Assembly (NCBI GenBank): GCA_945890865.1 | Contig: CAMDDB010000025.1 | Coordinates: 1-40,610, forward strand | Length of the DNA stretch: 40,610 nucleotides | DNA from: Flavobacterium psychrophilum | GTDB lineage: Bacteria; Bacteroidota; Bacteroidia; Flavobacteriales; Flavobacteriaceae | Reading direction: 5' to 3' | In this document: positions 3,298 to 40,610 of the stretch, piece after piece | How the letters are laid out: each line of letters begins with the position of its first letter | How positions within the stretch are numbered: the first letter of the stretch is position 1 | Notes under the pieces: model-generated | What the model was told of the DNA's origin: nothing | Seen by the model: only the letters and a program-made list of their open reading frames with translations | The model's database searches: none | Program-made: the position numbers and the translations under genes

Positions 3298-3309
3298 TGC
3301 TTGAATTTT

Positions 3310-4530: not shown

Positions 4531-4533
4531 TAC

Positions 4534-9346: not shown

Positions 9347-9351
9347 TTTCT

Positions 9352-18756: not shown

Positions 18757-19655
18757 TGTAATAGTGTTTTTATACCTTCAAAAATTCCAATCTTAGGCTC
18801 CCAATCGATAAAAGCTTTTAATTTTGATACATCCGCCAACAAATGCATACGCTCTACCTTCCGAATTCTTTCAGGATGTTGTTTAATTGTAATCTTTTCT
18901 CCTAGACAGTATTCAAAAGCTTCTACGATTTCCGTCACCGAATATTCTCGTCCCTGACCTAAATTAAAAATATCAATTCCTTCTTCAAATTTATGCATTA
19001 ACAAATAAATGGCGTTTGCCATATCACTAGTATGAATAAAATCCCTTTTAGGTTCTAAATTACCTAACTCAATTTCTCGCTTCCCTTCGACAATTTGAGC
19101 TTGTATTTCTGGAATCAAATGAGGATTAGTTTCGTTAGGACCAAAAGCATTAAAAAAACGACAAATTATAGTCGGAATACTCGTTCTATTATGTAAGTTT
19201 TGACATAAATATTCACCAGTCAATTTAGATAATCCATAAATATCTAAGGGCCCTGTAGTTTCATCCTCAGAAATACAGTTTTCTAAAATCGGATATACAG
19301 CAGCAGTAGAGGCGTAAAAGATCTTATTAACCGAATCAGTTTGTGCGCATGCATCTAAAATATTCTTTGTACCTTCTATATTAATTTGTGATGATTCAAA
19401 AGGATATTTGTTACAATAGGGGATAAAATGCACTGCCGCTAAATGTATCACCCACTCAGGTTGTATTTCTTTGAAAATTTCAAAAACACGGCTTCTATTA
19501 CGAATATCCTCAACATAAAATTGTTTGTCCGGAATATTTATTAAAGTTCTGTCACCGAAAGAACAATTATCAATAGTATAAATTTCATGGTGTCGAAACC
19601 TAGCGTAAACTGCGCTTCCTATAAAGCCAGATATACCCGTTATTAATATCTTCAT
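18753..19655 (-). CDS. NAD(P)-dependent sugar epimerase/dehydratase (extended SDR)
   Basis: 300 residues with TGISGFIG (6-13), the STAAVYP active-site serine region (116-122), the catalytic Y140 and K144 in DIYGLSK, and RDFIHTSDMANAI later on. These features define extended SDR nucleotide-sugar enzymes such as GalE-type 4-epimerases. The substrate is not clear; a UDP-hexose or UDP-N-acetylhexosamine 4-epimerase is the most conservative guess. The gene overlaps both neighbours by ATGA, sitting between two transferase genes whose donor it may supply. Confidence 0.83.
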   Translation of the reverse strand: MKILITGISGFIGSAVYARFRHHEIYTIDNCSFGDRTLINIPDKQFYVEDIRNRSRVFEIFKEIQPEWVIHLAAVHFIPYCNKYPFESSQINIEGTKNILDACAQTDSVNKIFYASTAAVYPILENCISEDETTGPLDIYGLSKLTGEYLCQNLHNRTSIPTIICRFFNAFGPNETNPHLIPEIQAQIVEGKREIELGNLEPKRDFIHTSDMANAIYLLMHKFEEGIDIFNLGQGREYSVTEIVEAFEYCLGEKITIKQHPERIRKVERMHLLADVSKLKAFIDWEPKIGIFEGIKTLLQ

Positions 19656-20554
19656 AATTTTAATTTAAACAACATTGATAAAAGTCTCAACTTTGACTTT
19701 TTATTAAAAAACAGGTAAAATATCATACATCTCTCCTTAAAATTACAATTACTTAAACAATCAAAATATGACATGTAGAATTTTGTTTTAATAGTTTTGA
19801 TTAATTTCTTATTTTTTAAAAATAACAACTCTGTATTCAACTTTTTCTTAAAAAACGCAAATTGTTTAATCCGTTTGTCCGAATGAGAAATACTATTGGG
19901 TAATATTCTGTATACCGCGGTTCTATAATCTATATAATATAAAGTAGCATTATTCCGAAAAATCGATAATACAATATAAAGATCCCATAACGTATTTTCG
20001 ATAACTGATACATTATTAATCACATCGACCAAACATTTCCTGAACATAAAAGTAGGAGAGTTTAAAAAATTACTCCCCTGTTCAACATAGCCTTCTAAAC
20101 TACTCCAAGACTTTAGACTCAACCGATTTATCTCCGGCAGTTTTATATACTCTTTACTCAATTCATCAAACCAATAGGCAGCTGAAAAAACTAAGCCAAT
20201 ATCATTATTCCCGAGTAATATTTGAAGTTGTTCGTTTAATTTATTGTCGTTCAACCAAAAATCATCTCCATCACATATGGCAATAAATTCACCTTGACAC
20301 TCATTGAATCCCCAAAAAAAATTTTGCTGCATACCTTTGTTTATGCTGTGATTAAACAATTTGAAGTCTATATTCGTATTTTGTCTATTCATCAAAAAGC
20401 CTTCAATCACTTTTCTAGTATTATCAGTAGAACAATCGTTACAAATTACGACTTCAACTTTTTCATCAATAACCTGCTTATCTATTGAACTTAGATTTTC
20501 TAAAATATAATTTTCTTGATTATAGACCAAAACTAAAACACTAATCTTATACAT
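19652..20554 (-). CDS. Glycosyltransferase family 2
   Basis: 300 residues from the ATG at 20552-20554; a TTG three codons upstream is possible but less likely. GT-A motifs are VLVLVYNQENY (6-16), NDCSTDNT (39-46) and CDGDDFW (94-100). The C-terminal third is rich in Lys, Phe and Asn, matching the very AT-rich DNA here. It overlaps the upstream SDR gene by eight bases and follows the deoxysugar genes directly, so it may use that deoxysugar as donor; this is inference from position only. Confidence 0.85.
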   Translation of the reverse strand: MYKISVLVLVYNQENYILENLSSIDKQVIDEKVEVVICNDCSTDNTRKVIEGFLMNRQNTNIDFKLFNHSINKGMQQNFFWGFNECQGEFIAICDGDDFWLNDNKLNEQLQILLGNNDIGLVFSAAYWFDELSKEYIKLPEINRLSLKSWSSLEGYVEQGSNFLNSPTFMFRKCLVDVINNVSVIENTLWDLYIVLSIFRNNATLYYIDYRTAVYRILPNSISHSDKRIKQFAFFKKKLNTELLFLKNKKLIKTIKTKFYMSYFDCLSNCNFKERCMIFYLFFNKKSKLRLLSMLFKLKL

Positions 20555-21443
20555 CTGTATCAATCCAATTTTTAAACTTCACAATTTCAAAATCATTCAG
20601 AATTTTTTGAATTTTAGAATAGTCAAAAATCGTATCTCCTGATTCTAACACCAAATCTCTTTCCGAAAACGGACAGAATTCAATCTCCATTTTATATTTT
20701 TTTGCCACTAAAATACCAACTTCAAGAATCGAAAGATTCTCTCCTATGATATTAAAAACCTCATTTTTAGAAATCAAACTACCAAAATATAATTGCTTAC
20801 AAATATCCATAACATGTGTAAAGGTTCTTCGCATGTCGCCGGATCCAAACACTTTTATGTTCATACCCTTCTTGGCTTGATCCATAAAAAATCCAATAGT
20901 ACCATATGACGACTTTAGTCCCATTTCATTGCCATAGGGCACCCCAATTCTGAATACAGTATAATTTATATTAAATTTTAAGCGGTAAATTTCTAAAATA
21001 TTTTCACACACAAATTTATTCAATGCATATGTTGTCTTAAATTCTTTCTGACTATCTTCTGTCAATTTCTTGTTTTTTTCACCTCTGTAAACTAATCGAG
21101 TGGATGGAAAAATAATTTTATTGTTATAACTACTAAATCTTTTTATATTATCAAGTACGTTGACAAGACCTAATTCATTCAAAATTATATAATCATATGT
21201 GTTCTCGATTGAAATTTCAGTACCCGTTAATCCCGCAAAAAAATAGATTAAATCGTAATTAAAATTTATTCTTTTAACAATTTCTGAATCACTAATATCA
21301 ATTTTTTCATATGTAAAACCTGTATTAATAGCCTTATCATCCTTATCAAATAGAACGATATCTACCAACCCTATATCCTCACTTAAAAACTTTACAAGAT
21401 GACGGCCTAGAAAACCATTACAACCAAAAACAGCAACTCTCAT
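20547..21443 (-). CDS. Extended SDR, putative sugar 4-ketoreductase or epimerase
   Basis: 298 residues. GCNGFLG (7-13) is the nucleotide-binding glycine motif, FPSTRLVY (112-119) holds the serine/threonine region, and Y139/K143 (YALNK) are the catalytic pair. It is a divergent SDR of the type that reduces 4-keto sugars at the end of deoxysugar pathways, and it overlaps by ATGA with the Gfo/Idh ketoreductase gene that follows the 2,3-dehydratase gene. In that setting a 4-ketoreductase finishing a 2,6-dideoxyhexose is the best guess; epimerase activity cannot be excluded. Confidence 0.8.
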   Translation of the reverse strand: MRVAVFGCNGFLGRHLVKFLSEDIGLVDIVLFDKDDKAINTGFTYEKIDISDSEIVKRINFNYDLIYFFAGLTGTEISIENTYDYIILNELGLVNVLDNIKRFSSYNNKIIFPSTRLVYRGEKNKKLTEDSQKEFKTTYALNKFVCENILEIYRLKFNINYTVFRIGVPYGNEMGLKSSYGTIGFFMDQAKKGMNIKVFGSGDMRRTFTHVMDICKQLYFGSLISKNEVFNIIGENLSILEVGILVAKKYKMEIEFCPFSERDLVLESGDTIFDYSKIQKILNDFEIVKFKNWIDTDV

Positions 21444-22432
21444 TGTATATAATTTATAATTGCGTTATTCCTAACTTCCTCGAGTAAATTTATAAAACTT
21501 TGACTTCTCCTAGTTTCATTATATTCGCATACATTGTTTATATCCAAATATAATCTATTTAATAAATGAACAAAGTGATTCTCGGAATCAAATAATTTAC
21601 GCTCTCTTGAATTTTCAATTTCAACCAAAACTTCTGGTTTTACACCTGGTCCCGCTGTAAAAATGCGATTTGCCGTGATTTTGCCCTTGCTGCCCCAAAT
21701 TTCAAGATTACATTGGTAATAATTATCAAAACCAAAATTTATATGCGCGGTTTTTCCACTTCCATCAATTAATAAAGCACCTCCATATAAATCTATGTTT
21801 CTACTCCTATCAAAATTCAAAGAGGAAGTTACATAAAACTGTTGCGAAAAGTCCAATAGTAACGAACTTATAATAATACCATACGCTCCAGCATCGTTCA
21901 ACGAACCTCCGCCTAAAAATTGGGAATAACGTATATTATCCAAATCCTGAAAGGGTGGAAACCCAAACGATGCACTAATTGATCTAATTTCCCCGATATA
22001 ACCATTATTAATTTGTTCTTTTATAAATTTAAATTGCGAGTGGTACTCGAACATAAAATTCTGCTTTACTACTAAATTCTTTTCAATGGCAATCTTGCTT
22101 ATTCGATCAAACTCTATCTTATTTAAAACTATAGGTTTTTCTACCAAAACATGCTTTCCGTTTTCTAATGCTTTACATATCCATTCAAAATGTAAACTAT
22201 TTGGTAATGGTATATAAACCAAATCAATGTTAACGTCTCCTACCACTTCCTCATAGTCCGAAACAATAGTTACATCTTGATTCTCAAAATTTAGGTCGGA
22301 TAACAATGCACTCTTTCTAGAAGCAATCTTCTTAATTGAAAAATATTCACACTCTTCAAATGCCCTTTTCATGTGTTTCTTAAACACATTTGCGTAACCT
22401 AAAACACCAACATTTAAACAGCCTTTACTCAT
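21440..22432 (-). CDS. Gfo/Idh/MocA oxidoreductase, putative NDP-sugar 3-ketoreductase
   Basis: 330 residues from the ATG at 22430-22432 (a TTG two codons earlier is the other option). The Rossmann start is VGVLGYANVFKKH (8-20) and EKP lies at 98-100; GGGSLNDAGAYGI in the second half is the substrate-domain segment. Gfo/Idh enzymes such as KijD10, SpnN and OleW reduce the 3-keto group left by NDP-hexose 2,3-dehydratases in 2-deoxysugar pathways. Its gene overlaps the 2,3-dehydratase gene by eight bases, exactly the pairing expected. Class certain, 3-ketoreductase role well supported by context. Confidence 0.85.
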   Translation of the reverse strand: MSKGCLNVGVLGYANVFKKHMKRAFEECEYFSIKKIASRKSALLSDLNFENQDVTIVSDYEEVVGDVNIDLVYIPLPNSLHFEWICKALENGKHVLVEKPIVLNKIEFDRISKIAIEKNLVVKQNFMFEYHSQFKFIKEQINNGYIGEIRSISASFGFPPFQDLDNIRYSQFLGGGSLNDAGAYGIIISSLLLDFSQQFYVTSSLNFDRSRNIDLYGGALLIDGSGKTAHINFGFDNYYQCNLEIWGSKGKITANRIFTAGPGVKPEVLVEIENSRERKLFDSENHFVHLLNRLYLDINNVCEYNETRRSQSFINLLEEVRNNAIINYIQ

Positions 22433-23825
22433 ACACAAAAGTAGAAATTAAACTGCGCGCTTGGATATTAAAAATATTATTAAATCTAAGTAAACTTTGA
22501 ACTTGGTTCAACGTTAACCAAATATATCTTTCAGGCAAGATCTGATCAAAATCATCGTTTGCTAACACAACAATATTACGATTCACATCATGATAAAACC
22601 TTCCACCTTCTTCTGATAAGTAATTATCAAATAAAACTATTTTACCATTATCAGAGTTTAATAAGTAATCCAAGTAAGGTACTTCGTAACTCGGATCTTT
22701 ATAATCACCAGTAATGCATTGTACTGTTGGGGCTAGTTCAATTATATCAAGGTTTCCGCATTCAATTTTTGACTGTACCAATATATAAATTATTCCATCA
22801 ATTTCCTTCAAAATGAACGCACAAATTCCCGGATTACATGGCCTAATCATTGGTTGGGTCCAATTCGTAACTTCGCGATTCTCTATTGAAACATTGACCC
22901 CAATAACTTCAAAAAATTTATTATCGCGATGATAAATTTTTTGTTCATCATAAATCCAATCCCCTAGATCAAGTAAATTACAATTGCGCGTTATTAGTTC
23001 ATATTGGAATTTTAAATTCGTGATAAATGAAGAGACTTCAAATAAACTATTTAAAATCCCATGATTCTTTTGAGAAGACTTTAATAATGAACGCCCGAAA
23101 ACACTTAAACTTTCGAAATCAATATGTTGGGTGAATTCTTGTAAATTATTAGAAATACCAGATAATACCGTTCTTGTATCCATATTTACTAGATTAGGAA
23201 TTTTTAATAGTTTTTTTATTTGATTTAATGTCAACCAAATAAATTCATCTGATATTTCAACGATTTCTGCATAAACAACAAGATTCCTATTCCTCTTTTT
23301 TAGGAAACGAGCACCTTGTTCAGACTGAAGTTGGTCAATAATTATATGGTCTTTTTTTATATTTTGAAAATACTCCAAAAATTTTGGGGCATTTCCATTA
23401 TGGACTTTAGTGAAGTTGCTTTTTGTCGCTTGTACCGTGGGAGATAATTGAATTACATTAATATTCCCTGGTTCAATTTTCGCTTGAATTAAAAAGTGTA
23501 AAACTCCATCTATAATTTTACACAATATTCCTAGTATTCCAATTTCTGGCTGATTAATAATTGGTTGCTTCCAATTGTTCACATTACCCCAATTAGTCTC
23601 AACTTCTATACCCTCAATAGAAAAGAATTTATTTGATTGGTGCTTGATTTTTCCTAAATTTTCATCGAAACTCCATTGATTTAAATCTTTCAAACTGATT
23701 ATTTCTACATTTACTTTAGTCTTGTTTTTTAAATTCTCAATCCAATCAAATACATAATCAATTTCATGCAAAGACACTTTTGATTGCCCACTTTGGTAAA
23801 TTGATTCAGCGAATTTATCATTCAT
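22425..23825 (-). CDS. NDP-hexose 2,3-dehydratase (EvaA/TylX3/SpnO-like)
   Basis: 466 residues, the usual length for the family, made of two homologous halves. In the first, WKQP (85-88), QPEIGILG (92-99), QAKIEPGN (114-121) and QLSPTVQATKSN (126-137) match family signatures; in the second, WTQP (322-325), QSKIECGN (351-358) and ELAPTVQC (363-370) repeat them about 237 residues later, each half ending in IWLTLNQ. Known members remove the C2 hydroxyl of NDP-4-keto-6-deoxyhexose, starting 2,6-dideoxysugar synthesis in antibiotic producers. The product needs a 3-ketoreductase, and the next gene encodes one. The ATG at 23823-23825 overlaps the previous gene by eight bases. The nucleotide (CDP or dTDP) is not known. 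Confidence 0.9.
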   Translation of the reverse strand: MNDKFAESIYQSGQSKVSLHEIDYVFDWIENLKNKTKVNVEIISLKDLNQWSFDENLGKIKHQSNKFFSIEGIEVETNWGNVNNWKQPIINQPEIGILGILCKIIDGVLHFLIQAKIEPGNINVIQLSPTVQATKSNFTKVHNGNAPKFLEYFQNIKKDHIIIDQLQSEQGARFLKKRNRNLVVYAEIVEISDEFIWLTLNQIKKLLKIPNLVNMDTRTVLSGISNNLQEFTQHIDFESLSVFGRSLLKSSQKNHGILNSLFEVSSFITNLKFQYELITRNCNLLDLGDWIYDEQKIYHRDNKFFEVIGVNVSIENREVTNWTQPMIRPCNPGICAFILKEIDGIIYILVQSKIECGNLDIIELAPTVQCITGDYKDPSYEVPYLDYLLNSDNGKIVLFDNYLSEEGGRFYHDVNRNIVVLANDDFDQILPERYIWLTLNQVQSLLRFNNIFNIQARSLISTFVYE

Positions 23826-24903
23826 TCCTAAGGTAATTTAATAAACTGTTTGAATAGTTTTCCATATTAAAATATTTATTGTAGCAATTTATTACTTCAA
23901 TACAATAAGTCTGATAATTCTCTGTTATTTCAATGATTGCTTTTTCGAATTCGCGTTGATTATTAATGAAAATGCCAATACCGTTTTCACTTACAAAAGA
24001 GTTTAAATCCGAATTTCCAAGAACTATAACTGGTTTACCGTTCCTAAGAAACTCTACTAATTGATTTGATGCAAACCTAATGTTGAAGAAATTTAAATCA
24101 TTTATATTATATGATATTACTCCAATCTGACATTGTTGTAGTACATGATACATTTCGTTTGGTTCAAGAAAAGTTTCTGAAATCTCTATGTTCATCAACC
24201 TCGGTTCTCTTTCAAAAATTTTATAATCAATATATCCATGAAATTTCAAACTATAATCAATATTTTTTTCGGTAAAATATTTTACCAACAAATCAGATTG
24301 GCTTCTGCCACCGTTTATACCTCCTATCTGTAAAATTTGTGGTATTTTGTACTCAATTTTTTTTTCAATTTTTACAGGCGGTAAAACTAACGGTAATTCA
24401 AAAACTTTCAGTTTGTTTGTTATATCATACGTTAGCTTAAATAAATTCAACCTATTTTTATCTTGAATAATCAGATTTGGATGTTTTTTAAGACAATAAA
24501 CCAATAAAAAATTTAATATCCTGTAGATTTTTCTGTTGTATAAATGATTGTCTTTGGTGATAAAATCATGACTCCAAAGATAGGAATTTTTAAATCCAGC
24601 AAAAACAGTATTTATAAATATAAAATTATCTATTGATATAGCATTATCATATTTTCTTGAAAGCCGCCTTAATTGAAAAAACTGTAATATAAAATTAAAG
24701 TTTTTTCTCACAGAACTTAATCCATATTTAAAAAAATTGATTTTAAAGAGCTTCTTGTGGATTTCTAATCCTCTTTCTTCAAAAATAAATATATCGCAAT
24801 CATAATGTATTTCGCAAAAGTCAGTTAAATACCTGACATGTGGATACTGATGCGGGCCAGAATTTGGAAATGGTGTTATTATCAACAGTTTATTCTTTTT
24901 CAC
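23818..24903 (-). CDS. Putative GT-B glycosyltransferase (GT4-like)
   Basis: 361 residues from a GTG at 24901-24903, which gives a natural V/MKKNKLLIITPFPNSG beginning; another GTG at 24919-24921 would add six residues and overlap the previous gene by 11 bases. There is no in-frame ATG. The protein is rich in Lys, Asn, Ile and Phe. GT-B features are weak but present: IGGINGGRSQ (about 198-207) as the hinge motif, a cytidine/uridine-pocket-like ISYNINDLNFFNIRFASNQ region and NGKPVIVLGN (about 300). No clear EX7E motif. It lies between the aminotransferase and 2,3-dehydratase genes, so it is a good candidate for transferring the deoxysugar made there. Confidence 0.75.
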   Translation of the reverse strand: MKKNKLLIITPFPNSGPHQYPHVRYLTDFCEIHYDCDIFIFEERGLEIHKKLFKINFFKYGLSSVRKNFNFILQFFQLRRLSRKYDNAISIDNFIFINTVFAGFKNSYLWSHDFITKDNHLYNRKIYRILNFLLVYCLKKHPNLIIQDKNRLNLFKLTYDITNKLKVFELPLVLPPVKIEKKIEYKIPQILQIGGINGGRSQSDLLVKYFTEKNIDYSLKFHGYIDYKIFEREPRLMNIEISETFLEPNEMYHVLQQCQIGVISYNINDLNFFNIRFASNQLVEFLRNGKPVIVLGNSDLNSFVSENGIGIFINNQREFEKAIIEITENYQTYCIEVINCYNKYFNMENYSNSLLNYLRNE

Positions 24904-24910
24904 ACCGTAT

Positions 24911-26014
24911 CTATAAAACACCTATGACTAATTCCACCTCGTACATTTCCAACCCCAACCCACTAGGCAAATAAAAACCGCATCTTGCCATATTTTCAGC
25001 AACCGGATAGTTTTCACCTTTAAATAAACCCATATTTTGGAAAACGGGCTGTTCATGCATACACCAGAAAAAGGGTCTTGTACCTATTTGAAGCTTTGTT
25101 AATTTTTCAATCGTTTGGTTTTTTAATTCTTCACTTTCCGCGACTAAACCAAAAATCCAATAAATGTTATCAGAGTAATCAGTACTTTCCAAAGGCAACT
25201 GAAATCCTTTTATATCTCTTAGCCCTTTTTGATAGGCCCTTCCTATCTCTCGCTTCTTTTTGATGTGAAAATCAATCTTTTCTAATTGTGCCAAACCTAA
25301 TGCTGCCTGTAAATTCGTCATTCTATAATTCCAACCTAATTCATAATGAACAAACCTTGGTTTATCCGGTTCGAATGCCAGATTTCTCAATTTTCTGCAT
25401 CGCTCAGCCAAATCGGAATTGTTGGTTAAAATCATTCCTCCCTCACCCGTTGTTATATGCTTGTTCGGATAAAAACTAAAAGTACTGATATCGCCAAAAG
25501 AACCTACCCTTTTATCAAAATAGGTTTGTCCATGCATTTCGGCTGCGTCTTCTATAAGATAAATATTATTTAATTTACATAGTTCTATTAATGGATTAAG
25601 ATCAACAGGTAAACCATAGATGTGAACTGCTATAATGGCTTTGGTTTTACTCGTAATTTTCCGAGCTACCTGTTCAATATTCATATTCCAAGTATCGATG
25701 CACGAGTCCACTAATACCGGAGTTGCTCCGCTTCGAACAACTTGTATTATTGGCGAAATTATTGTGAACGTGGGAAGTATCACTTCATCTCCAGGTCCAA
25801 TGCCAAGTGCCGCAATTGCAATATCTAAAGCAGCCGTTCCGTTTGCAACGGCTATACCATATTCACAACCAATGTAGTCAGAAAAGTCATTCTCAAACTT
25901 TTGAATAAAAGGACCCTCACTTGAGATCCAGCCAGTTTCTATACATTCCGTTAAATATTTTAACTCGTTTCCTGAAAGTAAGGGTGTATTAACGGGTATT
26001 GATTTATTTATCAT
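24911..26014 (-). CDS. DegT-family 4-aminotransferase, perosamine synthase-like
   Basis: 367 residues. K185 in SFYPNKHITTGEGG is the PLP lysine; GTAALD (59-64), PTFTIIS (81-87), HIYGLPVD (131-138) and EDAAEMHGQTY (155-165) match GDP-perosamine synthases (RfbE/Per) almost throughout. That enzyme transfers an amino group from glutamate to C4 of GDP-4-keto-6-deoxymannose. No GDP-mannose 4,6-dehydratase is in the window, so it may act on GDP-sugar made elsewhere or on another 4-keto-6-deoxysugar, for example the 2,3-dehydratase pathway product. The ATG at 26012-26014 lies in an 11-base overlap with the methyltransferase gene, suggesting that amination and methylation act on the same sugar. Confidence 0.88.
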   Translation of the reverse strand: MINKSIPVNTPLLSGNELKYLTECIETGWISSEGPFIQKFENDFSDYIGCEYGIAVANGTAALDIAIAALGIGPGDEVILPTFTIISPIIQVVRSGATPVLVDSCIDTWNMNIEQVARKITSKTKAIIAVHIYGLPVDLNPLIELCKLNNIYLIEDAAEMHGQTYFDKRVGSFGDISTFSFYPNKHITTGEGGMILTNNSDLAERCRKLRNLAFEPDKPRFVHYELGWNYRMTNLQAALGLAQLEKIDFHIKKKREIGRAYQKGLRDIKGFQLPLESTDYSDNIYWIFGLVAESEELKNQTIEKLTKLQIGTRPFFWCMHEQPVFQNMGLFKGENYPVAENMARCGFYLPSGLGLEMYEVELVIGVL

Positions 26015-26774
26015 GCTTTTTTAAAATATATGTTACGCCCCATGTATTAACGGATGGTTGTTTCATTGTTTGAAATTCATGAGATTCTATTAACTCAAAA
26101 CCACTGAACTCAGCCATCAATCTAATTTCTGGGGTTGAAAAATGTCGCATAGGATGTGTTTCACTAAAAACTTCAATAGTATTGGATGTTTTGTCTTTGA
26201 CAAAAATTTCAAAATTCACATCTACCACATTTCTATCTTCATCCATTATAGATTTTGCAATTCTAGTAACTTCAATTCTGTCATTTTCAACTTTTCGAAT
26301 ACGTGTTTCAGGCTTTTGAAAATAAACGGCGGGTGTGTACCAAACATCGAATATGAAAACTCCTCCATTATTCAGAAGTTTATGCACTCCTTTAAAACAG
26401 GATAAAATTTCTTCTGTTTTTGTTAGGTAACTCATTACGTGAAAAAGAGAAATTGCAGCATCAAAAGTTTTTGGCAGTGTGAGTTTTGTCAACTCAGCTA
26501 TATTGCCTTGCAACACATCAAAAGATTTGATGTTCTTACCCTTGACCTCCTTAACCATTTCTTCACTCAATTCTATGCCCTGAATGAAACTAATAAAAGG
26601 ATATTTTACCAAATATTCTGCGTGTGCGCCGCTACCACATCCTAGTTCTAGTATGTCAAGACTTTGATTTGGAAAGTGCAATATCAATAACTTAGCTATA
26701 TAGTCTGATTCCTCAGAATATTGTTTTTGATAGTTGATAAGGTCGTAGTAGTAACTGTAAAATTCGAAATTCAT
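26004..26774 (-). CDS. Class I SAM methyltransferase, possibly sugar N-methyltransferase (TylM1/DesVI-like)
   Basis: 256 residues from the ATG at 26772-26774, one base after the previous stop. The SAM motif is ILELGCGSGAH (41-51), with FDVLQGNIAEL as the acidic second strand and LNNGGVFIFDVW later. The FYSYYYDLINYQ start and the RHFSTPEIRLMAEFSGFEL tail follow the pattern of TylM1/DesVI-type enzymes that N-methylate amino-deoxysugars. Its overlap with the 4-aminotransferase gene supports N-methylation of a 4-amino sugar. Methyltransferase class is certain; N- versus O-methylation is inferred. Confidence 0.82.
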   Translation of the reverse strand: MNFEFYSYYYDLINYQKQYSEESDYIAKLLILHFPNQSLDILELGCGSGAHAEYLVKYPFISFIQGIELSEEMVKEVKGKNIKSFDVLQGNIAELTKLTLPKTFDAAISLFHVMSYLTKTEEILSCFKGVHKLLNNGGVFIFDVWYTPAVYFQKPETRIRKVENDRIEVTRIAKSIMDEDRNVVDVNFEIFVKDKTSNTIEVFSETHPMRHFSTPEIRLMAEFSGFELIESHEFQTMKQPSVNTWGVTYILKKHDK

Positions 26775-26775
26775 T

Positions 26776-27204
26776 TTAATCAAATTTTACCAATGACTCG
26801 TCAACGGGAGAAAATCTAACCTTATCCATTTCACCGCAATAGGGTCCTTGTTTAACCTCAATAATTTCACTTTGCTCTAACATCTTAAAGCCATGTCCAC
26901 CATCAGCCAATAGGATAACATCCCCCCGATTAAGAATTCTACTTGTTATGTATTCTTGTTCCGTTGAATAAAAGTCGACCCTTACTTTTCCACTTTTAAT
27001 AAGCAATACTTCTTGCGTGTAATGAACTTCTCTAGGAACCAAGTTGTGCCGGTGTGGTGGTATAATATAGTCTACTGGACGACTCATGTATCCGAGTTGT
27101 TGAGAATCATTATCATTTGTGAAAAACTCGATTCCATCTTTTTCAAAATCACTATAAATTATTATAGCTAATTTATTTTTGTTTTTATATATTTCTTCAA
27201 ACAT
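26776..27204 (-). CDS. Small cupin-fold protein
   Basis: 142 residues. A single cupin domain with probable metal ligands H51 and H53 (PPHRHN) and E65 (YTQEVL), then SGKVRVDFYS and a GDVILLADGGHGF second cupin motif. It lacks the GxHAH pattern of QdtA/FdtA 3,4-ketoisomerases, so I do not assign that role. Similar small cupins are frequent beside sugar aminotransferase/methyltransferase genes, but I know of no defined function. The ATG at 27202-27204 lies 37 bases inside the end of the preceding GT2 gene, the longest overlap in the window; no other start would keep the conserved N-terminal part. Confidence 0.78.
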   Translation of the reverse strand: MFEEIYKNKNKLAIIIYSDFEKDGIEFFTNDNDSQQLGYMSRPVDYIIPPHRHNLVPREVHYTQEVLLIKSGKVRVDFYSTEQEYITSRILNRGDVILLADGGHGFKMLEQSEIIEVKQGPYCGEMDKVRFSPVDESLVKFD

Positions 27205-30913: not shown

Positions 30914-30961
30914 CACAATTATTATGTATTCAACAATTTAAACTGTGTTACGCAAAAATTA

Positions 30962-31900: not shown

Positions 31901-31903
31901 GTT

Positions 31904-33715
31904 CTAATTGTGTCGATTAATGATTAATGATTTAGGAGACAAATCATTCGCCATTATTTCTTTTATAGTTTCCAAGTCAATTAGTGGCGACATTTCTTCT
32001 AATGGGGGACTAAAAATGTCAGTGCTTTCCGCTACTGGTATTCCTTTAACCTTCGGTGTAAAGTCTTGCTCTGGGTCCATCATAACTTCAAGTATAACAC
32101 TAGATTTCAAATGAAAGTATTGATCAATAACAGCATTGTAGTTATCTATGCTTTCAAGCCGAAGATAATTATAACCGAAAGCTTGTGCTAAATCTTTGAA
32201 ATTTGGAAAATCAACGCCCGTTTTTTGATCAACAGCGGTGTAATGTCCATTAAACAACATTTTTTGGGTATGTTTAATCATTAAATAACCTAAATTATTG
32301 AAAATAATAATTTTAACTGTTGGTTTTAATTTTGCTATCGTATGCAATTCTTGTAGATTCATCATAATCCCTCCATCGCAATTCAAACAATGCACAGTAC
32401 CATTTGAGTTTTGATTTTTTAGTGCAACTGAAGCACCTACAGCATAGGGCAACCCTACTCCCATTTCACCTAGGCCTTGACTCGTAAACATTTTGTAACC
32501 GCTTACTTCCATAACTTGATGACCGCTGAGTAGCGCCGTTCCCATATCTGTAACAACCACATCACCTTTCGGAATCTGTTTGGATAGTTTATTAAGGAAA
32601 AGATAAGAATTTACGTATTGACTTTCGTTTAAATACTCTTTAGAAACAATAGGAAACTTATCTCGAATTAACGAGCATTCTTTGATCCAACTTTCAGGAT
32701 TAAATTCTGAATTAATTTTTTGATTGATTGCTTCAATAATATTTTTGACATTGTAATTAATTTTGGTGTAACGATTATATTTGTTTAATTCGTTTTCATC
32801 AATATCCACAACCACAATTCGTGCATTTGGAGCAAATTCATTGATTTGATATCCTATTTGTGGAATTGCTAATCGAGTACCTAAACAAAGAATAAAATCA
32901 GACTTTTGTATGATAAAATTGGCATGCCTTTGGCCATACAATCCAAATCGTCCAAAATATTTTGGATTATTATTATCAATAAGATCGATTCCGGACCAAG
33001 TGCTCATGAAGGGCACATTTAGTTTATTTACAAGCTTATTTAATAAGGACTGGCTATTGGAGAGATTAATACCATTTCCAGCAAGAATAACGGGTTTTTC
33101 TGAATAGTATAATTGTTGTAAAATTTGATCTGCGTAATCGTCAGCAATAGTGGTGCCTAGGGTTGAAACAATATTTTTTTTAAACGATTTTTCTTCGATT
33201 AGTTTTGCTTGGATATCAAAGGGTATCTCAATCCAAACAGGTCCTGGTCTTCCAGATTGAGTGATAGTAAAAGCATGTGAGAGTTCATTATAAATATCAT
33301 TTTCATCTAAAACACAAGTAGAATATTTCGTTATATCTTGTACCATTTTAGCAGAATTAAACCCTTGGGTTCCATACATTCTTCCATAGATGTTTTTCAT
33401 GTATCTACTGGGCTCCTGCCCTGAAATGATTACACCTGGTATTGAATCTGCCCAATTGCTGAGAACTCCAGTAACTGCATTACTAGCACCAGCACCAGCG
33501 GTAACAAGAGCTACTGCCATTTTTCCAGAGGTCCGGAAGTATGCAGCCATAGCCATTATCAAAGCTTGTTCATGATGTAAGCAGATAATTTCTGTATACC
33601 CAAGCCTATTTATTGAATCAAAAATATGTGCATTCGCAGAACCAATAATACCAAAAGCTACTTGAATACTTTCTTCTTTGAGCTTTAAAGCAATAATATC
33701 ACTAACTTTTATCAT
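31904..33715 (-). CDS. Thiamine-diphosphate enzyme, acetolactate-synthase fold, YerE-like candidate
   Basis: 603 residues from the ATG at 33713-33715. The ThDP-activating glutamate is E49 (HHEQALIMA), the central domain has GNGINLS (213-219), and the ThDP/Mg motif is CDGGIMMNLQEL (446-457) ending in IFNN (471-474). This is the full layout of acetolactate synthase-type enzymes, but the gene is in a sugar locus directly after rfbH. YerE, a ThDP/flavin enzyme of this family, adds a two-carbon acetyl unit from pyruvate to C4 of CDP-3,6-dideoxy-4-ketohexose in yersiniose synthesis, and that reaction fits the context best. A housekeeping acetolactate synthase is unlikely without ilv neighbours. It overlaps rfbH by 14 bases. 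Confidence 0.85.
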   Translation of the reverse strand: MIKVSDIIALKLKEESIQVAFGIIGSANAHIFDSINRLGYTEIICLHHEQALIMAMAAYFRTSGKMAVALVTAGAGASNAVTGVLSNWADSIPGVIISGQEPSRYMKNIYGRMYGTQGFNSAKMVQDITKYSTCVLDENDIYNELSHAFTITQSGRPGPVWIEIPFDIQAKLIEEKSFKKNIVSTLGTTIADDYADQILQQLYYSEKPVILAGNGINLSNSQSLLNKLVNKLNVPFMSTWSGIDLIDNNNPKYFGRFGLYGQRHANFIIQKSDFILCLGTRLAIPQIGYQINEFAPNARIVVVDIDENELNKYNRYTKINYNVKNIIEAINQKINSEFNPESWIKECSLIRDKFPIVSKEYLNESQYVNSYLFLNKLSKQIPKGDVVVTDMGTALLSGHQVMEVSGYKMFTSQGLGEMGVGLPYAVGASVALKNQNSNGTVHCLNCDGGIMMNLQELHTIAKLKPTVKIIIFNNLGYLMIKHTQKMLFNGHYTAVDQKTGVDFPNFKDLAQAFGYNYLRLESIDNYNAVIDQYFHLKSSVILEVMMDPEQDFTPKVKGIPVAESTDIFSPPLEEMSPLIDLETIKEIMANDLSPKSLIINRHN

Positions 33716-35024
33716 GAACAAATGATAATATTACAGATACCATAAACTCTAAATGTTCACATTTTAGTCCAGGCCAAACGCCAAGCCAAAAAGAGTTATT
33801 CATGATCAAGTCGCAATTCTCGAGTGAACCAACAATCCTTTTATCAATATTTTGGTACGCCGGTTGTTTTAGCATATTTCCCCCAAAAAACAAACGGGTT
33901 CCTATTTTATTGGCTTCTAAGTATTGAACCAATTCATTACGATTAATCTTACTTTCGGGCCTTATGGTTAGCATAAACCCAAACCAAGATGGATCAGAAT
34001 TGGGAGTTGCCACGGGTAAAATAAAATGTTCTTCTAAAGGCTTCATTAAGTCGCACAATATTCTATGATTTTCTCTGCGTTTGGCAACAAATCTGTCTGC
34101 TTTCCGCAATTGATTTAATCCAATGGCCGCTTGGGTGTCAGTCACTTTCAAATTAAAACCAATATGGCTGTAGGTGTATTTGTGATCGTATCCACAAGGC
34201 AATTCACCCAACTGCCAATCAAAACGCTTGCCACAAGTATTATCTTTACCTGTTTCACAATAGCAGTCACGTCCCCAGTCCCTAAAACTCCAAGCGGGTC
34301 GAAGTAATTTTAAATTGTTCACTAGTACGGCCCCACCTTCACCCATTGTAATATGGTGGGCAGGATAAAATGATACCGTGGCCAAATCACCAAAACTACC
34401 CGTTTTCTGTCCATTATAAGTTGCACCCAATGAATCGCAATCATCCTCAATCAACCAAAGATTGTATTTCTCTGCTATTGCGGTAACTACAGCTAAGTTG
34501 AAGGGATTACCCAACGCATGTGCAATCATGATTGCCTTCGTTTTTGGCGAAATCGCTTCCTCCAATAAATTAACGTTGATGTTGTACGTTGGTATGTCTA
34601 CATCCACAAAAACCGGAATGCATCCAAACTGAATCATCGGATTAATTGTGGTTGGAAAACCGGCTGCTACTGTGATCACTTCATCGCCTGGCTTAATCGC
34701 TCTTTCCCCCAATTTGGGAGATGTCAACGAGTAAAACGCGACAAGATTCGCTGATGACCCCGAGTTAACTAAAACTGCGGCTTTACTGCCAAAATAGGCT
34801 GCAAAATCTTTTTCGAAATCTTTTGCATAACGACCAGTGGTAAGCCAAGCATCTAGGGTGGCATCAACCCCATGAAGAATATCGTCCACGTCTAAGACCT
34901 TCCCAGTAACAGGGATATAATCACGTCCAGGAACAATTTCTTGATGGATGTTTTTTGCTATTACAGCACTCAATTGCTCTCTCAGATTGTCTGATGCGAT
35001 GTTTTTATATTCAAATTGACTCAT
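33702..35024 (-). CDS. rfbH: CDP-4-keto-6-deoxyglucose 3-dehydrase (E1, RfbH/DdhC/AscC)
   Basis: 440 residues. It has the DegT fold with the usual PLP lysine replaced by histidine: SFYPAHHITMGEGG with H223/H224. Cysteines C196, C254, C256 and C264 are spaced as the [2Fe-2S] ligands of E1. Both features mark the radical C3-deoxygenase that, with a reductase, makes CDP-3,6-dideoxy-4-ketoglucose. No gene for the reductase (RfbI/AscD/DdhD) is present in the window. It overlaps rfbG by 14 bases and the ThDP-enzyme gene by 14 bases. SpnQ of forosamine synthesis belongs to the same family, so an additional role on the 2,3-dehydratase product is conceivable. Confidence 0.94.
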   Translation of the reverse strand: MSQFEYKNIASDNLREQLSAVIAKNIHQEIVPGRDYIPVTGKVLDVDDILHGVDATLDAWLTTGRYAKDFEKDFAAYFGSKAAVLVNSGSSANLVAFYSLTSPKLGERAIKPGDEVITVAAGFPTTINPMIQFGCIPVFVDVDIPTYNINVNLLEEAISPKTKAIMIAHALGNPFNLAVVTAIAEKYNLWLIEDDCDSLGATYNGQKTGSFGDLATVSFYPAHHITMGEGGAVLVNNLKLLRPAWSFRDWGRDCYCETGKDNTCGKRFDWQLGELPCGYDHKYTYSHIGFNLKVTDTQAAIGLNQLRKADRFVAKRRENHRILCDLMKPLEEHFILPVATPNSDPSWFGFMLTIRPESKINRNELVQYLEANKIGTRLFFGGNMLKQPAYQNIDKRIVGSLENCDLIMNNSFWLGVWPGLKCEHLEFMVSVILSFVHDKS

Positions 35025-36087
35025 TGCTAATAAATAAATTAATATCGTTCTTCATTAAACTCAAAGCACTCTCAGATTGTAAAAAATTCTTATACCACCT
35101 AGCAGTTCTATTTAGAGCTTTATCTGAGTTCCATGTTGGACTCCATCCCAATTGTTTCATAGATTTAGAAATATCCAATGTAAGAAGGCCAGCCTCGTGA
35201 GGTCGTTGAGTATTTTGATCTTCTACAACTACTTTACCCGCATAAAGTTGCGAAATTATCGTTTGACACACTTCATAGACAGTTTTTGCTTCGTCAGTTC
35301 GTGGTCCAAAATTAAAAGCTTCGCAATATGAAGATCCTTTTTCATCCATGGTTTTGGCCAACAAAAGATATCCAAAAATGGGGTCCAACACATGTTGCCA
35401 AGGTCGAACGGCGTTTGGGTTTCTCAAAACTACATCTTCATTATTTTGAGCTGCCCTCACAACATCTGGGATCAAACGATCTTGTGACCAATCTCCCCCG
35501 CCTATGACATTACCTGCCCTTGCCGATGCCACAAAAATGTTTGTGTGTGTAAAAAATGATTTACGATAACTGTCGATCACCAGTTCCGCAGCCGCTTTGC
35601 TGGAACTATAAGGATCGTATCCTCCTAGGGCGTCTGTTTCACGATAAGGGTATAACCATTCATTATTGTGGTATACTTTATCCGTGGTGATACATACCAC
35701 ACAACATTTTTTCTCAAGTACTTTACAAGCTTCTAAGATATTTGCCGTACCCATGACATTTGTGGAAAATGTTTCTATAGGATTCTTATATGAATAACGA
35801 ACCAATGGTTGTGCGGCCATGTGAAAAATAAAGTCTGGCTGTGACTTTTTCACAACTTCTGTTATTTGCAATAGGTCATTCACATCAGCAATATTCGATT
35901 CACAATATGAATCTAAATCTAATTCATTGTAAAGATTTGGGGTTGAATTGGGTGTCAAGGAGTATCCAACAACATTTACATCATTCGATGAAAGCAAATA
36001 AGTCATCCATGATCCTTTGAATCCCGTATGGCCAGTAATTAAAACTGTTTTTTCGCGAAAATAATCTAAAACATCTTTAATTACCAT
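35011..36087 (-). CDS. rfbG: CDP-glucose 4,6-dehydratase
   Basis: 358 residues from the ATG at 36085-36087, seven bases inside the end of rfbF. GHTGFKGSW (19-27) is the NAD-binding loop specific to CDP-glucose dehydratases, TTDKVYHN (134-141) the active-site region, and Y160/K164 in DPYSSSK the catalytic pair. It converts CDP-glucose to CDP-4-keto-6-deoxyglucose, the substrate of RfbH. It is the only NDP-hexose 4,6-dehydratase in the window, so its product may also feed the 2,3-dehydratase or 4-aminotransferase if those accept CDP sugars. Confidence 0.94.
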   Translation of the reverse strand: MVIKDVLDYFREKTVLITGHTGFKGSWMTYLLSSNDVNVVGYSLTPNSTPNLYNELDLDSYCESNIADVNDLLQITEVVKKSQPDFIFHMAAQPLVRYSYKNPIETFSTNVMGTANILEACKVLEKKCCVVCITTDKVYHNNEWLYPYRETDALGGYDPYSSSKAAAELVIDSYRKSFFTHTNIFVASARAGNVIGGGDWSQDRLIPDVVRAAQNNEDVVLRNPNAVRPWQHVLDPIFGYLLLAKTMDEKGSSYCEAFNFGPRTDEAKTVYEVCQTIISQLYAGKVVVEDQNTQRPHEAGLLTLDISKSMKQLGWSPTWNSDKALNRTARWYKNFLQSESALSLMKNDINLFISNESI

Positions 36088-36851
36088 TTCTTCCAAGGTG
36101 CTTTATTGGAATCCCACAAAGCATTAAGGTCATTCTTATCTTTCAACGAATCCATTGGTTTCCAAAACCCATGATGTTTATAGCCCAATAAATTTCCTAA
36201 AGTTGCCAAGCTTTCTAATGGTTCACGCTCCCAAACGGTGCTATCACCTTCAATGAGGTCAAACACATTGGGTTCACAGACAAAAAATCCCCCATTGATC
36301 CATGCCACATCATCAGAGCTCTTTTCGTTGAACCTGTGGACTTGATTTGTATCATCAATTCCCAAAACACCGAATCTGCCATCAGGTTTGATACTAGTAA
36401 CAGTGGCTGATCGACCGTGAGATTTATGGAACTCAACCAACGCATTAACATCAACGTCACTTAGTCCATCGCCATAAGTAAGCATAAATCTTTCGTTTCC
36501 AACGTATTTTTGGATGCGTTTGATTCTGCCGCCGGTCATAGTATCACGGCCGGTATCCACTAAGGTGATTTTCCAGTTATCAGATTCGCGATTGTGAACT
36601 TCAATCTTATTATTCTCTAAATCTATGGTAATATCGCTTTGGTGCAAAAACAGATTGGCGAAATATTCTTTAATTACATATCCTTTATAACCCAAACAAA
36701 CTACAAATTCATTGAACCCTTGAGATGCATAAATTTTCATAATATGCCATAGAATAGGTTTTCCTCCTATTTCTACCATGGGTTTAGGGCGAATGTCCGT
36801 CTCTTCAGAAATCCTGGTCCCAAGACCGCCAGCTAGGATGACTACTTTCAT
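36081..36851 (-). CDS. rfbF: Glucose-1-phosphate cytidylyltransferase
   Basis: 256 residues from the ATG at 36849-36851, four bases after the wzt stop; this matches the roughly 257-residue family length, whereas a TTG six codons upstream would not. GGLGTR (8-13) and RPKPMVEIGGKPI (20-32) are the nucleotidyltransferase signature, and the TYGDGLSDVDV stretch holds the metal-binding aspartates. It makes CDP-glucose from CTP and glucose-1-phosphate, the first step of CDP-3,6-dideoxyhexose synthesis carried on by the next two genes. Confidence 0.95.
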   Translation of the reverse strand: MKVVILAGGLGTRISEETDIRPKPMVEIGGKPILWHIMKIYASQGFNEFVVCLGYKGYVIKEYFANLFLHQSDITIDLENNKIEVHNRESDNWKITLVDTGRDTMTGGRIKRIQKYVGNERFMLTYGDGLSDVDVNALVEFHKSHGRSATVTSIKPDGRFGVLGIDDTNQVHRFNEKSSDDVAWINGGFFVCEPNVFDLIEGDSTVWEREPLESLATLGNLLGYKHHGFWKPMDSLKDKNDLNALWDSNKAPWKKW

Positions 36852-36855
36852 GATT

Positions 36856-38103
36856 TTAGTTTTTAACAATTATTGTTTTTATTACCGGCCTGATTATCCC
36901 ACCGATTTCACCTAGATAATTCGATGATCTCGAATTAGTTTCCAACACATCGAACCTTAATACGGCTTCCTTCATGAATATTATATCTGATGAATTAAAA
37001 ATTAAAAATACATCAATTGTATAAGTCTTATTGTTAAGAAAGTTAGCTGGGATAATATAATCCACAGAATATTCGCCCATAACTTGTTTCTCACTTGGAC
37101 TTCCAACACAAAACACTTTTGAGCTACCTTGATTTAAGTGAATACTCGTGGAAACATCGTCATGGTCAATGGATAAACTATAGGTCACTCTAATTATTAA
37201 ATCATTATCTAATCCAAGCAACTTGTTTTCAGAGCCTAAAACCTTTACCGACTTTAAATTTACTTCATTGCCAGAATCATTGCTAATATAATCTATTGTA
37301 TTAACAAGGTCTTGCTCTAAATAAGTGTCGATCAAACTGTCTACTTCTCCATCTGCAGAAACCTTACCGTTATTTAAAATCAAAGCTCGCGAACATAGTG
37401 AACGAACAGCCTCCATGTTGTGACTTACGAATAATATGGTTCTACCTTCAGAAGTACTAATATTTTGCATCTTCCCAATCGCCTTTTTTTGAAACTCGGC
37501 ATCACCTACCGCCAATACTTCATCCACTACTAAAATTTCTGGATCCAAAAACGCCGCAACCGCAAAACCTAAACGTACCGTCATACCTGAGCTGTAACGT
37601 TTTGTGGGTGTATCGATGTACAATTCACAACCGGAAAAATCGACTATCTCATCAAACTTACGTTGGATTTCTTTCTTGGTCATTCCGAGAATAGCTCCGT
37701 TCAGGAAAATATTTTCTCTTCCTGTTAACTCTGGATGAAAACCTGTTCCTACTTCCAATAAAGAAGCCATGCGACCTGCGCTCTTAATGCTTCCGGTAGT
37801 GGGCGAGGTAATACGACTCAATAATTTCAACAAAGTCGACTTGCCAGCACCATTTTTGCCAATAATTCCTAATACTTCTCCTCGTTTTACTTCGAAGTTG
37901 ATATCCTTAAGAGCCCAAACAAACTCAGCCTTTCCCTTGGAAGTTCGATCGTTGGTTTGACCCACTTTTAAAAACGGATCCTCCTGACCTAATATTTTTG
38001 TTTTCCAAAAACGCTGTACATCCCCTCCAAAAGTTCCCGTGCCAACCGTTCCTAAGCGGTATAGTTTGGATACATTTTCTACTTTTAAGATTACGTCGCT
38101 CAT
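36856..38103 (-). CDS. wzt: ABC exporter ATPase Wzt with C-terminal substrate-recognition domain
   Basis: 415 residues. The N-terminal ATPase has Walker A GKNGAGKST (82-90), the ABC signature YSSGMTVRLGF (170-180), Walker B EILVVDE (189-195) and the switch histidine in FVSHN (225-229). About 145 further residues form a beta-rich C-terminal region, as in Wzt proteins of E. coli O8/O9a, where this domain recognises the modified end of the O-antigen. With Wzm, whose gene ends one base upstream, it exports undecaprenyl-linked polysaccharide across the inner membrane. The C-terminal domain implies that a terminal modification may be the export signal. Confidence 0.93.
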   Translation of the reverse strand: MSDVILKVENVSKLYRLGTVGTGTFGGDVQRFWKTKILGQEDPFLKVGQTNDRTSKGKAEFVWALKDINFEVKRGEVLGIIGKNGAGKSTLLKLLSRITSPTTGSIKSAGRMASLLEVGTGFHPELTGRENIFLNGAILGMTKKEIQRKFDEIVDFSGCELYIDTPTKRYSSGMTVRLGFAVAAFLDPEILVVDEVLAVGDAEFQKKAIGKMQNISTSEGRTILFVSHNMEAVRSLCSRALILNNGKVSADGEVDSLIDTYLEQDLVNTIDYISNDSGNEVNLKSVKVLGSENKLLGLDNDLIIRVTYSLSIDHDDVSTSIHLNQGSSKVFCVGSPSEKQVMGEYSVDYIIPANFLNNKTYTIDVFLIFNSSDIIFMKEAVLRFDVLETNSRSSNYLGEIGGIIRPVIKTIIVKN

Positions 38104-38104
38104 T

Positions 38105-38974
38105 TTATATCGTGTCCATAAAGGACTTCTCTACTCGATTAAATACAAACAAACCAATAATATACACCACAATGGCAAACACCACCGTATATAACAATCC
38201 CCACATATTAATACTTCCCGAGCTGAAAAACGCATAGCGGAACACATCAAATACACTGGTAAGCGGATTCGCATATATTAACCATTGCTTCTCTGGGGAA
38301 ATTTTTTCCAAAAACATACTCGTTGGATAAATCACAGGGGTTACGTACATAGCCAAACCCACGGCAAAACTCATCAACTGGGAAAAATCACGATATTTGG
38401 TGGTCATAGAACTTACGATCATTCCAAGTCCCATTGATATTAAGGCCATTACTATAATTAATAAGGGTAATGTAAATACCAAGGCATTCATTTTCGAGAA
38501 TAGACCCATACCTATAATGAAGGTAATCAACAGTAAAAGCTTTATCCCAAACTGAAACAAATTAGAGGCTGTTATCGCCAACGGTACTATCGCCCTTGGA
38601 AAATAGACTTTCCCAAAGATTCCTTGATTAGCACTGAAAGTGTTGGATGTTCCCGTTAACGAGGTTTGAAAATAACTCCACAGCACATTTCCCCCTAGAA
38701 CAAATAAAAAGTAAGGGGTTCCATCGGAGGGCAATTCCCCCAACCGTCCGAATACCCAATATTGGGTTAAGGAGGCCATCAAGGGCGATATGAAATACCA
38801 TAAAGGGCCTAAAATGGTTTGTTTGTAAATCGATACTATATCGCGACGTATGAATAATATTAATAAGTCGCGGTATTGATAGATTTCTTTGAAGTTAAGT
38901 TTAAATTTCGAGCGCTCGGGTGAGATTTCGAAGAGCCATTTGGTTTGGGGTTCGGGGTTTAAAATTTTGGACAT
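38105..38974 (-). CDS. wzm: ABC exporter permease Wzm
   Basis: 289 residues from the ATG at 38972-38974 (a TTG two codons earlier is less likely). An ABC-2-type permease: a YRDLLILFIRRDIVSIYKQ amphipathic entry helix, ILGPLWYFISPL, then about six membrane segments including PYFLFVLGGNVLWSYF and AMYVTPVIYP. It forms the channel through which the lipid-linked glycan is moved, together with Wzt, encoded one base downstream. Confidence 0.93.
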   Translation of the reverse strand: MSKILNPEPQTKWLFEISPERSKFKLNFKEIYQYRDLLILFIRRDIVSIYKQTILGPLWYFISPLMASLTQYWVFGRLGELPSDGTPYFLFVLGGNVLWSYFQTSLTGTSNTFSANQGIFGKVYFPRAIVPLAITASNLFQFGIKLLLLITFIIGMGLFSKMNALVFTLPLLIIVMALISMGLGMIVSSMTTKYRDFSQLMSFAVGLAMYVTPVIYPTSMFLEKISPEKQWLIYANPLTSVFDVFRYAFFSSGSINMWGLLYTVVFAIVVYIIGLFVFNRVEKSFMDTI

Positions 38975-38992
38975 TGCCAATTATATTGTGTT

Positions 38993-39973: not shown

Positions 39974-40610
39974 CAACCATTTCTTTATTTAAAACGCCTT
40001 TAACATCATATACTACTCCCTTATTCACAATTGCTCTGATATCTAAGTTGGCGAATTCTTTATGCGATACTGCTAAAATAGCCCCGCTGTATTGTGATTT
40101 GGGCAATTCATTCACCACCGTAATCCCATATTCGTGCATTACCTCTTCGGGATTGGCCCATGGGTCGTAAACGTCGACTTGGATGTCGAAATTTTTGAGT
40201 TCTTGGTAGATGTCGATGACGCGGGTATTGCGTACGTCGGGACAGTCTTCTTTGAAGGTAAATCCTAAAATCAAGACTTTCGAGTCAATGACTTTCAAGT
40301 CTTTGCGCATCATCAATTTCACCACTTCCGTCGCAACGTGTTTCCCCATAGAATCGTTTAAGCGTCGTCCAGCCAAAATAATTTCTGGATGGTAACCGAC
40401 TTCCTGCGCTTTTTGCGCGAGGTAGTAGGGATCTACTCCGATGCAATGTCCGCCGACCAATCCCGGCTTGAACTTCAAGAAGTTCCATTTAGTGCCTGCG
40501 GCTTCCAATACCTCTAAAGTATCGATGCCCATCAGGTTAAATATCTTACTCAACTCATTAACAAACGCAATATTGATGTCGCGCTGCGAATTCTCAATAA
40601 CTTTTGCTGC
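39960..40610 (-). CDS. wbpA: UDP-N-acetylglucosamine 6-dehydrogenase (WbpA/TviB-like), N-terminus beyond window
   Basis: The frame is open to the right edge; 216 C-terminal residues are visible of an expected total of roughly 420. [20 protein letters not shown] near the edge, the catalytic cysteine in [26 protein letters not shown] and [16 protein letters not shown] belong to the nucleotide-sugar dehydrogenase family, WbpA/TviB branch. It oxidises UDP-GlcNAc to UDP-GlcNAcA with two NAD. The product feeds the WbpP-like epimerase next door and, at the far end of the locus, the WbpB/WbpE pair. A TTG at 40551-40553 is an internal codon, not the start. Confidence 0.94.

Follow-up and report, generated by a model that had tools for sequence, protein, structure and literature searches.

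We analysed a 40,610-nucleotide stretch of Flavobacterium psychrophilum DNA (contig CAMDDB010000025.1, positions 1 to 40,610; hereafter the window), in which seven open reading frames (ORFs) form a candidate deoxysugar cassette on the minus strand. From 27204 down to 20547 they encode a cupin, a methyltransferase (MT), an aminotransferase (AT), a probable glycosyltransferase (GT), a predicted 2,3-dehydratase (DH), a predicted 3-ketoreductase (KR) and a short-chain dehydrogenase/reductase (SDR) (Table 1). All seven frames are open and neighbours overlap by 4-14 bases, starts having been chosen mechanically, so the gene content and coordinates given in the initial annotation of this DNA hold. 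The cassette lies inside a run of 37 minus-strand ORFs extending from 1127 to 40553. ORFs of at least 100 aa were considered, and 31 of the 37 were scanned against Pfam and/or NCBIfam; those outside the family scan were 12907-14055, 14052-15863, 15863-16780, 16780-17634, 17638-18756 and 28058-28966.

Table 1. Features of the window with the basis of each assignment; modules 1 and 2 are those of the two-sugar reading proposed in the text
Feature	Position	Strand	Basis
Cupin of the metal type (142 aa), opening module 1, candidate epimerase/ketoisomerase-like protein	26776..27204	-	Predicted fold
S-adenosylmethionine-dependent methyltransferase with sugar N-methyltransferase fold (MT), module 1	26004..26783	-	Fold match
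DegT-family sugar aminotransferase, perosamine-synthase-like (AT), module 1	24911..26014	-	DegT, 362 bits; pyridoxal phosphate (PLP) Lys185 present
Probable glycosyltransferase (GT), between modules	23818..24921	-	Look and neighbours
NDP-hexose 2,3-dehydratase, EvaA family (DH), module 2	22425..23825	-	PF03559, E 6e-143, 473 bits, two stretches/both domains
Gfo/Idh/MocA sugar 3-ketoreductase, KijD10-like (KR), module 2	21440..22438	-	Gfo/Idh/MocA family match
SDR, probably the 4-ketoreductase of the last step towards a 2,6-dideoxyhexose, module 2	20547..21443	-	PF01370, 91 bits
CDP-glucose pathway RfbH, RfbG, RfbF	33702..36869	-	RfbH 691, TIGR02622 477, TIGR02623 425 bits; all above curated cut-offs
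ABC polysaccharide exporter, Wzt- and Wzm-like	36856..38980	-	Best 203 bits (ATP-binding), 70 bits (permease); under curated cut-offs
O-antigen-ligase-like protein	7970-9361	-	Same ORF run as the cassette

DH had been proposed as a nucleoside diphosphate (NDP)-hexose 2,3-dehydratase, and a profile search bore this out. Its sole match in the PDB at E ≤ 0.001 was EvaA (4j7g, 319 bits). E118 and E169 of DH corresponded in the alignment to E139 and E190 of EvaA and were invariant in 22 of 22 aligned rows; according to the available text of the review PMC8987622, mutation of the catalytic Glu139 and Glu190 abolishes EvaA activity. The nearest relatives of DH were metagenome proteins, six of which showed 69-86% identity and were all full length. 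From its sequence, DH is predicted to carry out the 2,3-dehydration of an NDP-4-keto-6-deoxyhexose. The best PDB match of KR was the sugar 3-ketoreductase 3rbv (165 bits), the next protein in the phmmer ranking reaching 96 bits, and K101 and Y186 of KR aligned to one Lys and one Tyr of 3rbv. We take 3rbv to be KijD10, in which active-site Lys102 and Tyr186 are presumably catalytic. KR may likewise be assigned, from these matches, to C3 reduction of a 3,4-diketo sugar.

Relatives of DH were encoded by at least 570 stretches in 84,980 species genomes, and the 80 loci with the greatest similarity to the window DH were compared with the window (locus handles L001 and so on). KR accompanied DH in 76 of these 80 loci: it lay no more than 250 bp away in 67, and in nine it followed after one AT; the exceptions were L016 and L066, both at contig ends, L030 and L076. 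With 67 loci of the first kind and nine of the second, the pairing is hard to attribute to chance, and the DH-KR 2-deoxygenation pair, which the initial annotation had also recognised, is real. The best 80 loci belonged to Bacteroidota in 66 cases; of the 80, an ORF with its best window match in a glycosyltransferase occurred in 51 and one with its best match in an exporter of the Wzt/Wzm type in 10, and 24 had neither in the available sequence. When a limited number of first-look candidates was scored per genome, PF03559 (E ≤ 1e-30) was found in 3 of 395 phylum genomes, an even draw in which one of the three was pre-selected, and in none of 14 control genomes. The expectation that such chemistry would be uncommon was thus correct per genome but not overall, where the number of DH-relative stretches indicates that use of the pair outside antibiotic clusters is recurrent rather than singular. 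In Bacteroidota, few single genomes carry the pair, but it recurs.

To identify the enzyme that follows the DH-KR pair, partners were counted in the 80 loci with mechanically called ORFs, with a score above 100 bits against an AT of the window required for an AT and one above 150 bits for a window-type SDR. Touching the DH-KR block (≤300 bp), an AT was present in 45 loci and the SDR in 14, with both in none and neither in 21. When the distance was extended to 6 kb, there were 48 loci with AT only, 22 with SDR only, one with both and nine with neither, and within 10 kb they were 48, 19, four and nine. Six of the nine loci without either partner at 6 kb have less than 2 kb of downstream sequence; among the partnerless loci, L053 carries an RmlD-like SDR, L001 (5340-8158) an FdtA-type ketoisomerase after DH-KR, and L078 neither of these. 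A further finishing variant was seen in L045 (9968-14384), where DH-KR is followed by a formyltransferase and an AT. The SDR relatives in DH loci were 37-47% identical to the window SDR, and a window-type SDR also stands directly after KR in L019, L042, L065 and L071. Cultured organisms with the SDR layout include Flaviaesturariibacter flavus (L027) and Flavobacterium sp. LC2016-13 (L071). In 12 genomes carrying DH, the SDR family (E ≤ 1e-25) was present as a single copy beside DH in five, with no other copy in any. At E ≤ 1e-40 it was found in one of the 395 phylum genomes, G001, which is itself among the 12, and the other two PF03559 genomes of that draw were without it. The exclusion of AT and SDR gave a Fisher p of 1.5e-11 when kinship of loci was ignored, but was not significant once it was allowed for (see below). 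Since AT and SDR would both use the C4 ketone, this pattern suggests that the SDR acts as a C4-reductase.

The other half of the cassette recurs as a module of its own. At E ≤ 1e-30, MT was found in 7 of the 395 phylum genomes and in 2 of 249 genus genomes, and a cupin and an AT lay beside it in all nine loci; their order varies, L099 has one ORF between them, and the trio of L091 lies at a contig start. The 13-20 kb of sequence inspected at each of the nine loci contained no DH relative, and none of the seven phylum genomes with the trio contained PF03559 (E ≤ 1e-30), so that the AT of these genomes should act on something else. Among the 12 DH genomes, MT was absent at E ≤ 1e-30, and one weak match (E 1e-12, L081) had no trio around it. 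The window AT shared 41-63% identity with the seven trio ATs of the phylum and 68-70% with the two of the genus, and in a quick tree it formed a clade with five of the seven at SH-aLRT (approximate likelihood ratio test) support of 98 and with six at 97. The 51 AT hits in 49 AT-bearing DH loci were 25-37% identical to it. In addition, one Bacteroidales UBA4181 locus (L042, 10001-20236) contains DH-KR-SDR and, 5.4 kb further, GT2-cupin-AT without MT; this cupin-linked AT is 63% identical to the window AT, and its genome yielded no MT at E ≤ 1e-5. In L093, the gene immediately before the cupin encodes a GDP-mannose 4,6-dehydratase (gmd); this is the only one of the nine trio loci with gmd adjacent, and the window contains no gmd relative above 100 bits. 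Because the trio occurs without DH, and both modules stand apart in L042, the trio needs no 2-deoxygenation and two sugars are the simplest reading.

The four enzymes upstream of DH were assigned with differing precision. The description of AT as perosamine-synthase-like stands, its best PDB match being perosamine synthetase (3bn1, 288 bits; QdtB, 201 bits); perosamine itself is a candidate product but not an established one, as the cupin could act as epimerase or ketoisomerase. For MT, likened to TylM1 and DesVI in the initial annotation, there was a strong fold match to both and a weak sequence match to DesVI (3bxo, 60 bits), while in the fold comparison C-methyltransferases scored almost as high as N-methyltransferases. 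The cupin and GT labels are the weakest calls. The predicted fold of the cupin is of the sugar-epimerase/ketoisomerase type, with RmlC-type epimerases scoring equal to ketoisomerases; it had no Pfam match, its NCBIfam match to WbuC was sub-threshold (27 bits, cut-off 42), and it did not match Pfam FdtA (PF05523) at E up to 1, whereas the DH-linked protein of L001 scores 157 bits. GT had no Pfam or NCBIfam match, and its label therefore rests on its look and its neighbours; weak relatives (67 and 39 bits) lie directly after AT in the trio loci L089 and L090.

The Wzt- and Wzm-like exporter genes indicate that the cassette belongs to a surface-glycan locus, as had been proposed, and the 37-ORF run also contains glycosyltransferases, UDP-N-acetylhexosamine (UDP-HexNAc)-modifying genes and the O-antigen-ligase-like gene. 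An antibiotic cluster was considered and rejected, no polyketide or peptide synthase being present among the 31 scanned ORFs.

We favour, with moderate confidence, a reading in which the cassette comprises two nucleotide-sugar modules placed end to end around GT, one for a 2,6-dideoxyhexose and one for an N-methylated 4-amino-4,6-dideoxyhexose. In module 2, DH would act on an NDP-4-keto-6-deoxyhexose, taking away its C2 hydroxyl and leaving a 3,4-diketo-2,6-dideoxy sugar, KR would reduce its C3, and the SDR would reduce C4 to yield an NDP-2,6-dideoxyhexose of the olivose/digitoxose class. In module 1, AT would aminate C4 of a separate 4-keto-6-deoxyhexose and MT would methylate the nitrogen, giving for example N-methylperosamine or one of its epimers, with the cupin possibly serving as the epimerase. 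Both sugars would be incorporated into an exported polysaccharide. This is the second of two product options in the initial annotation, and the 80 DH and nine trio loci favour it over the first, a 4-(methylamino)-2,4,6-trideoxyhexose. Some observations weigh against it. Once relatedness was removed, few independent switches between AT and SDR remained and a sign test was not significant (median p 0.25). Furthermore, the window DH and KR sit in AT-rich parts of their trees, on long branches, where they group with AT-type loci.

That first option, which we regard as unlikely yet as the most serious alternative, is a single pathway in which DH, KR, AT and MT work in series towards a kedarosamine-like NDP-4-(methylamino)-2,4,6-trideoxyhexose and the SDR does something else. 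It would fit the position of all four genes within one overlapping run, the 48 DH loci whose 6-kb surroundings include an AT but lack a window-type SDR, and the tree positions just described. It also has a parallel in the L-ossamine pathway, for which the available text of PMC6490886 proposes a 2,3-dehydratase, a 3-ketoreductase and a 4-aminotransferase, the cluster itself also encoding an S-adenosylmethionine-dependent methyltransferase; since this enzyme set resembles that of the window, the single pathway keeps some weight. Against it stand the lineage of the window AT, which is that of the cupin-MT-AT loci known from genomes without PF03559, the low identity that it shares with the AT hits from DH loci, and the window-type SDR directly after KR, as in the four loci named above. 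It is improbable that module 1 of a two-sugar cassette instead makes a 3-amino sugar, with the cupin as 3,4-ketoisomerase, AT as 3-aminotransferase and MT as a TylM1-like 3-N-methyltransferase: the cupin lacks the FdtA match that the L001 protein shows, RmlC-type epimerases match its fold no worse than ketoisomerases do, and AT is closer to perosamine synthetase than to QdtB. A remnant or mixed island with one non-functional module would fit the low GC content over 18-25 kb (0.28-0.31, below most of the window) and the failure to retrieve the exact seven-gene order in any other locus, but is very improbable given seven open and overlapping frames, retained catalytic residues and the six full-length metagenome relatives of DH.

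With respect to the two-module reading, the parts of the cassette were compared with known systems. DH resembles EvaA (also TylX3, SpnO and OssS) in carrying PF03559 over both domains and the catalytic Glu pair; it differs in lying in a locus of surface-glycan type, and in the tree four metagenome relatives join it in a long-branch group. KR has KijD10 (also SpnN and OssT for the type) as its best PDB match, keeps the Lys and Tyr and has an adjacent 2,3-dehydratase, and differs in lying outside an antibiotic cluster. GDP-perosamine synthase (3bn1) is the closest solved aminotransferase to AT, which retains the PLP-binding Lys, whereas the window AT belongs to the conserved trio. MT is like DesVI, TylM1 and KedS8 in fold and active-site region, with 18-24% identity in the fold comparison and nearly equal scores for C-methyltransferases. 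The L-ossamine and kedarosamine pathways have the same set of DH, KR, 4-aminotransferase and MT; in the available text of PMC6490886, the proposed route to L-ossamine further includes an epimerase and a 3,4-dehydratase, whereas the window adds the SDR beside KR and an AT of the trio lineage. The same text places the 4,6-dehydratase genes of L-ossamine outside its cluster and notes that a kedarosamine intermediate would arise if epimerisation preceded 3-deoxygenation. Function by function, the parts of the window equal those of antibiotic deoxysugar pathways; the glycan setting, the added SDR and the AT lineage differ.

The combination of a 2,3-dehydratase with a 3-ketoreductase is familiar from antibiotic biosynthesis. 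The 2,3-dehydratases named in the available text of PMC8987622 come from antibiotic pathways, and the metagenome study PMC12145609, in the part available, classes the 2,3-dehydratase under secondary metabolism. Among the open-access matches listed for 3-dehydratase with O-antigen, capsule, Bacteroidetes or Flavobacterium, and for 2,6-dideoxy with O-polysaccharide, no title or abstract start describes the module, and in the available portions of PMC6124807 and PMC4898787 other 3-dehydratases are meant; PMC12211065 matched through a DOI only. No paper under N-methylperosamine-type names was found among the open-access papers searched, and the review PMC3210612 contains none of the terms 'methylamino', 'N-methyl' and 'digitoxose'. 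According to the available text of PMC6120980, the S-layer O-glycan of Tannerella forsythia contains a digitoxose residue, so there is at least one earlier case of such a sugar at the surface of a member of the Bacteroidota. As an enzyme-level precedent it was rejected: the sole PF03559 hit among 41 genomes searched in the genus of the Tannerella sp. locus (L076, G647) came from the pre-selected genome, and T. forsythia may achieve 2-deoxygenation by another route.

The enzyme families themselves were already known; the DH-KR pair in a glycan locus, together with the SDR and an AT of the trio lineage, is what differs. If the two-module reading is right, cell surfaces should bear 2-deoxy and N-methyl sugars made by a chemistry known from antibiotics. 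Glycosides of 2-deoxy sugars are acid-labile, so acid-based sugar analysis may miss them. The loci also offer enzyme pairs from outside actinomycetes for the making of rare sugars.

Among the scanned window ORFs, the only recognised supply of a 4-keto-6-deoxyhexose was that of the CDP genes, for CDP-4-keto-6-deoxyglucose synthesis. RmlB was present in 12 of the 12 DH genomes and RfbG in one, so the family relatives of DH probably use dTDP sugars as substrate. Adjoining RfbF, RfbG and RfbH and a further SDR (29867-36869) is a thiamine enzyme (31904-33721), which scored 539 bits to the thiamine-pyrophosphate-binding protein 8rph and 235 bits to an acetolactate synthase, and which its setting marks as putatively YerE-like. 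The content of 29867-36869 suggests a CDP-linked, C-branched 3,6-dideoxyhexose of the yersiniose type (compare the available text of PMC12247030); an RfbI-type reductase was not recognised among the 31 window ORFs scanned. We tentatively raise a broader possibility, in which one polysaccharide would carry the 2,6-dideoxyhexose, the N-methylated 4-amino-4,6-dideoxyhexose and a YerE-branched 3,6-dideoxyhexose, and the DH-KR core of Bacteroidota would be finished either by an AT, towards 4-amino-2,4,6-trideoxyhexoses, or by the window-type SDR, towards 2,6-dideoxyhexoses. Were this so, one exported glycan would combine three sugar types otherwise met chiefly in secondary metabolites or in rare O-antigens, and the 2-deoxysugar surface chemistry of Bacteroidota would be chemically largely undescribed.

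Several minor observations concern the rest of the window. The regions 1127-5613 and 38993-40553 contain a DegT AT, a Gfo/Idh protein and a UDP-GlcNAc 2-epimerase (297 bits, above cut-off), together with TviC-like and partial TviB-like genes, both under cut-off; we presume that these genes perhaps serve a UDP-HexNAc-derived uronic or diamino-uronic acid of the same glycan. A 291-aa ORF at 28963-29838, within the sugar operon, had no NCBIfam match. The GC content was 0.28-0.31 across 18001-25000, with its minimum of 0.28 at 23-25 kb, hinting at separate acquisition; it rose to 0.40 elsewhere in the window, and a second dip, to 0.305, was observed at 6-8 kb.

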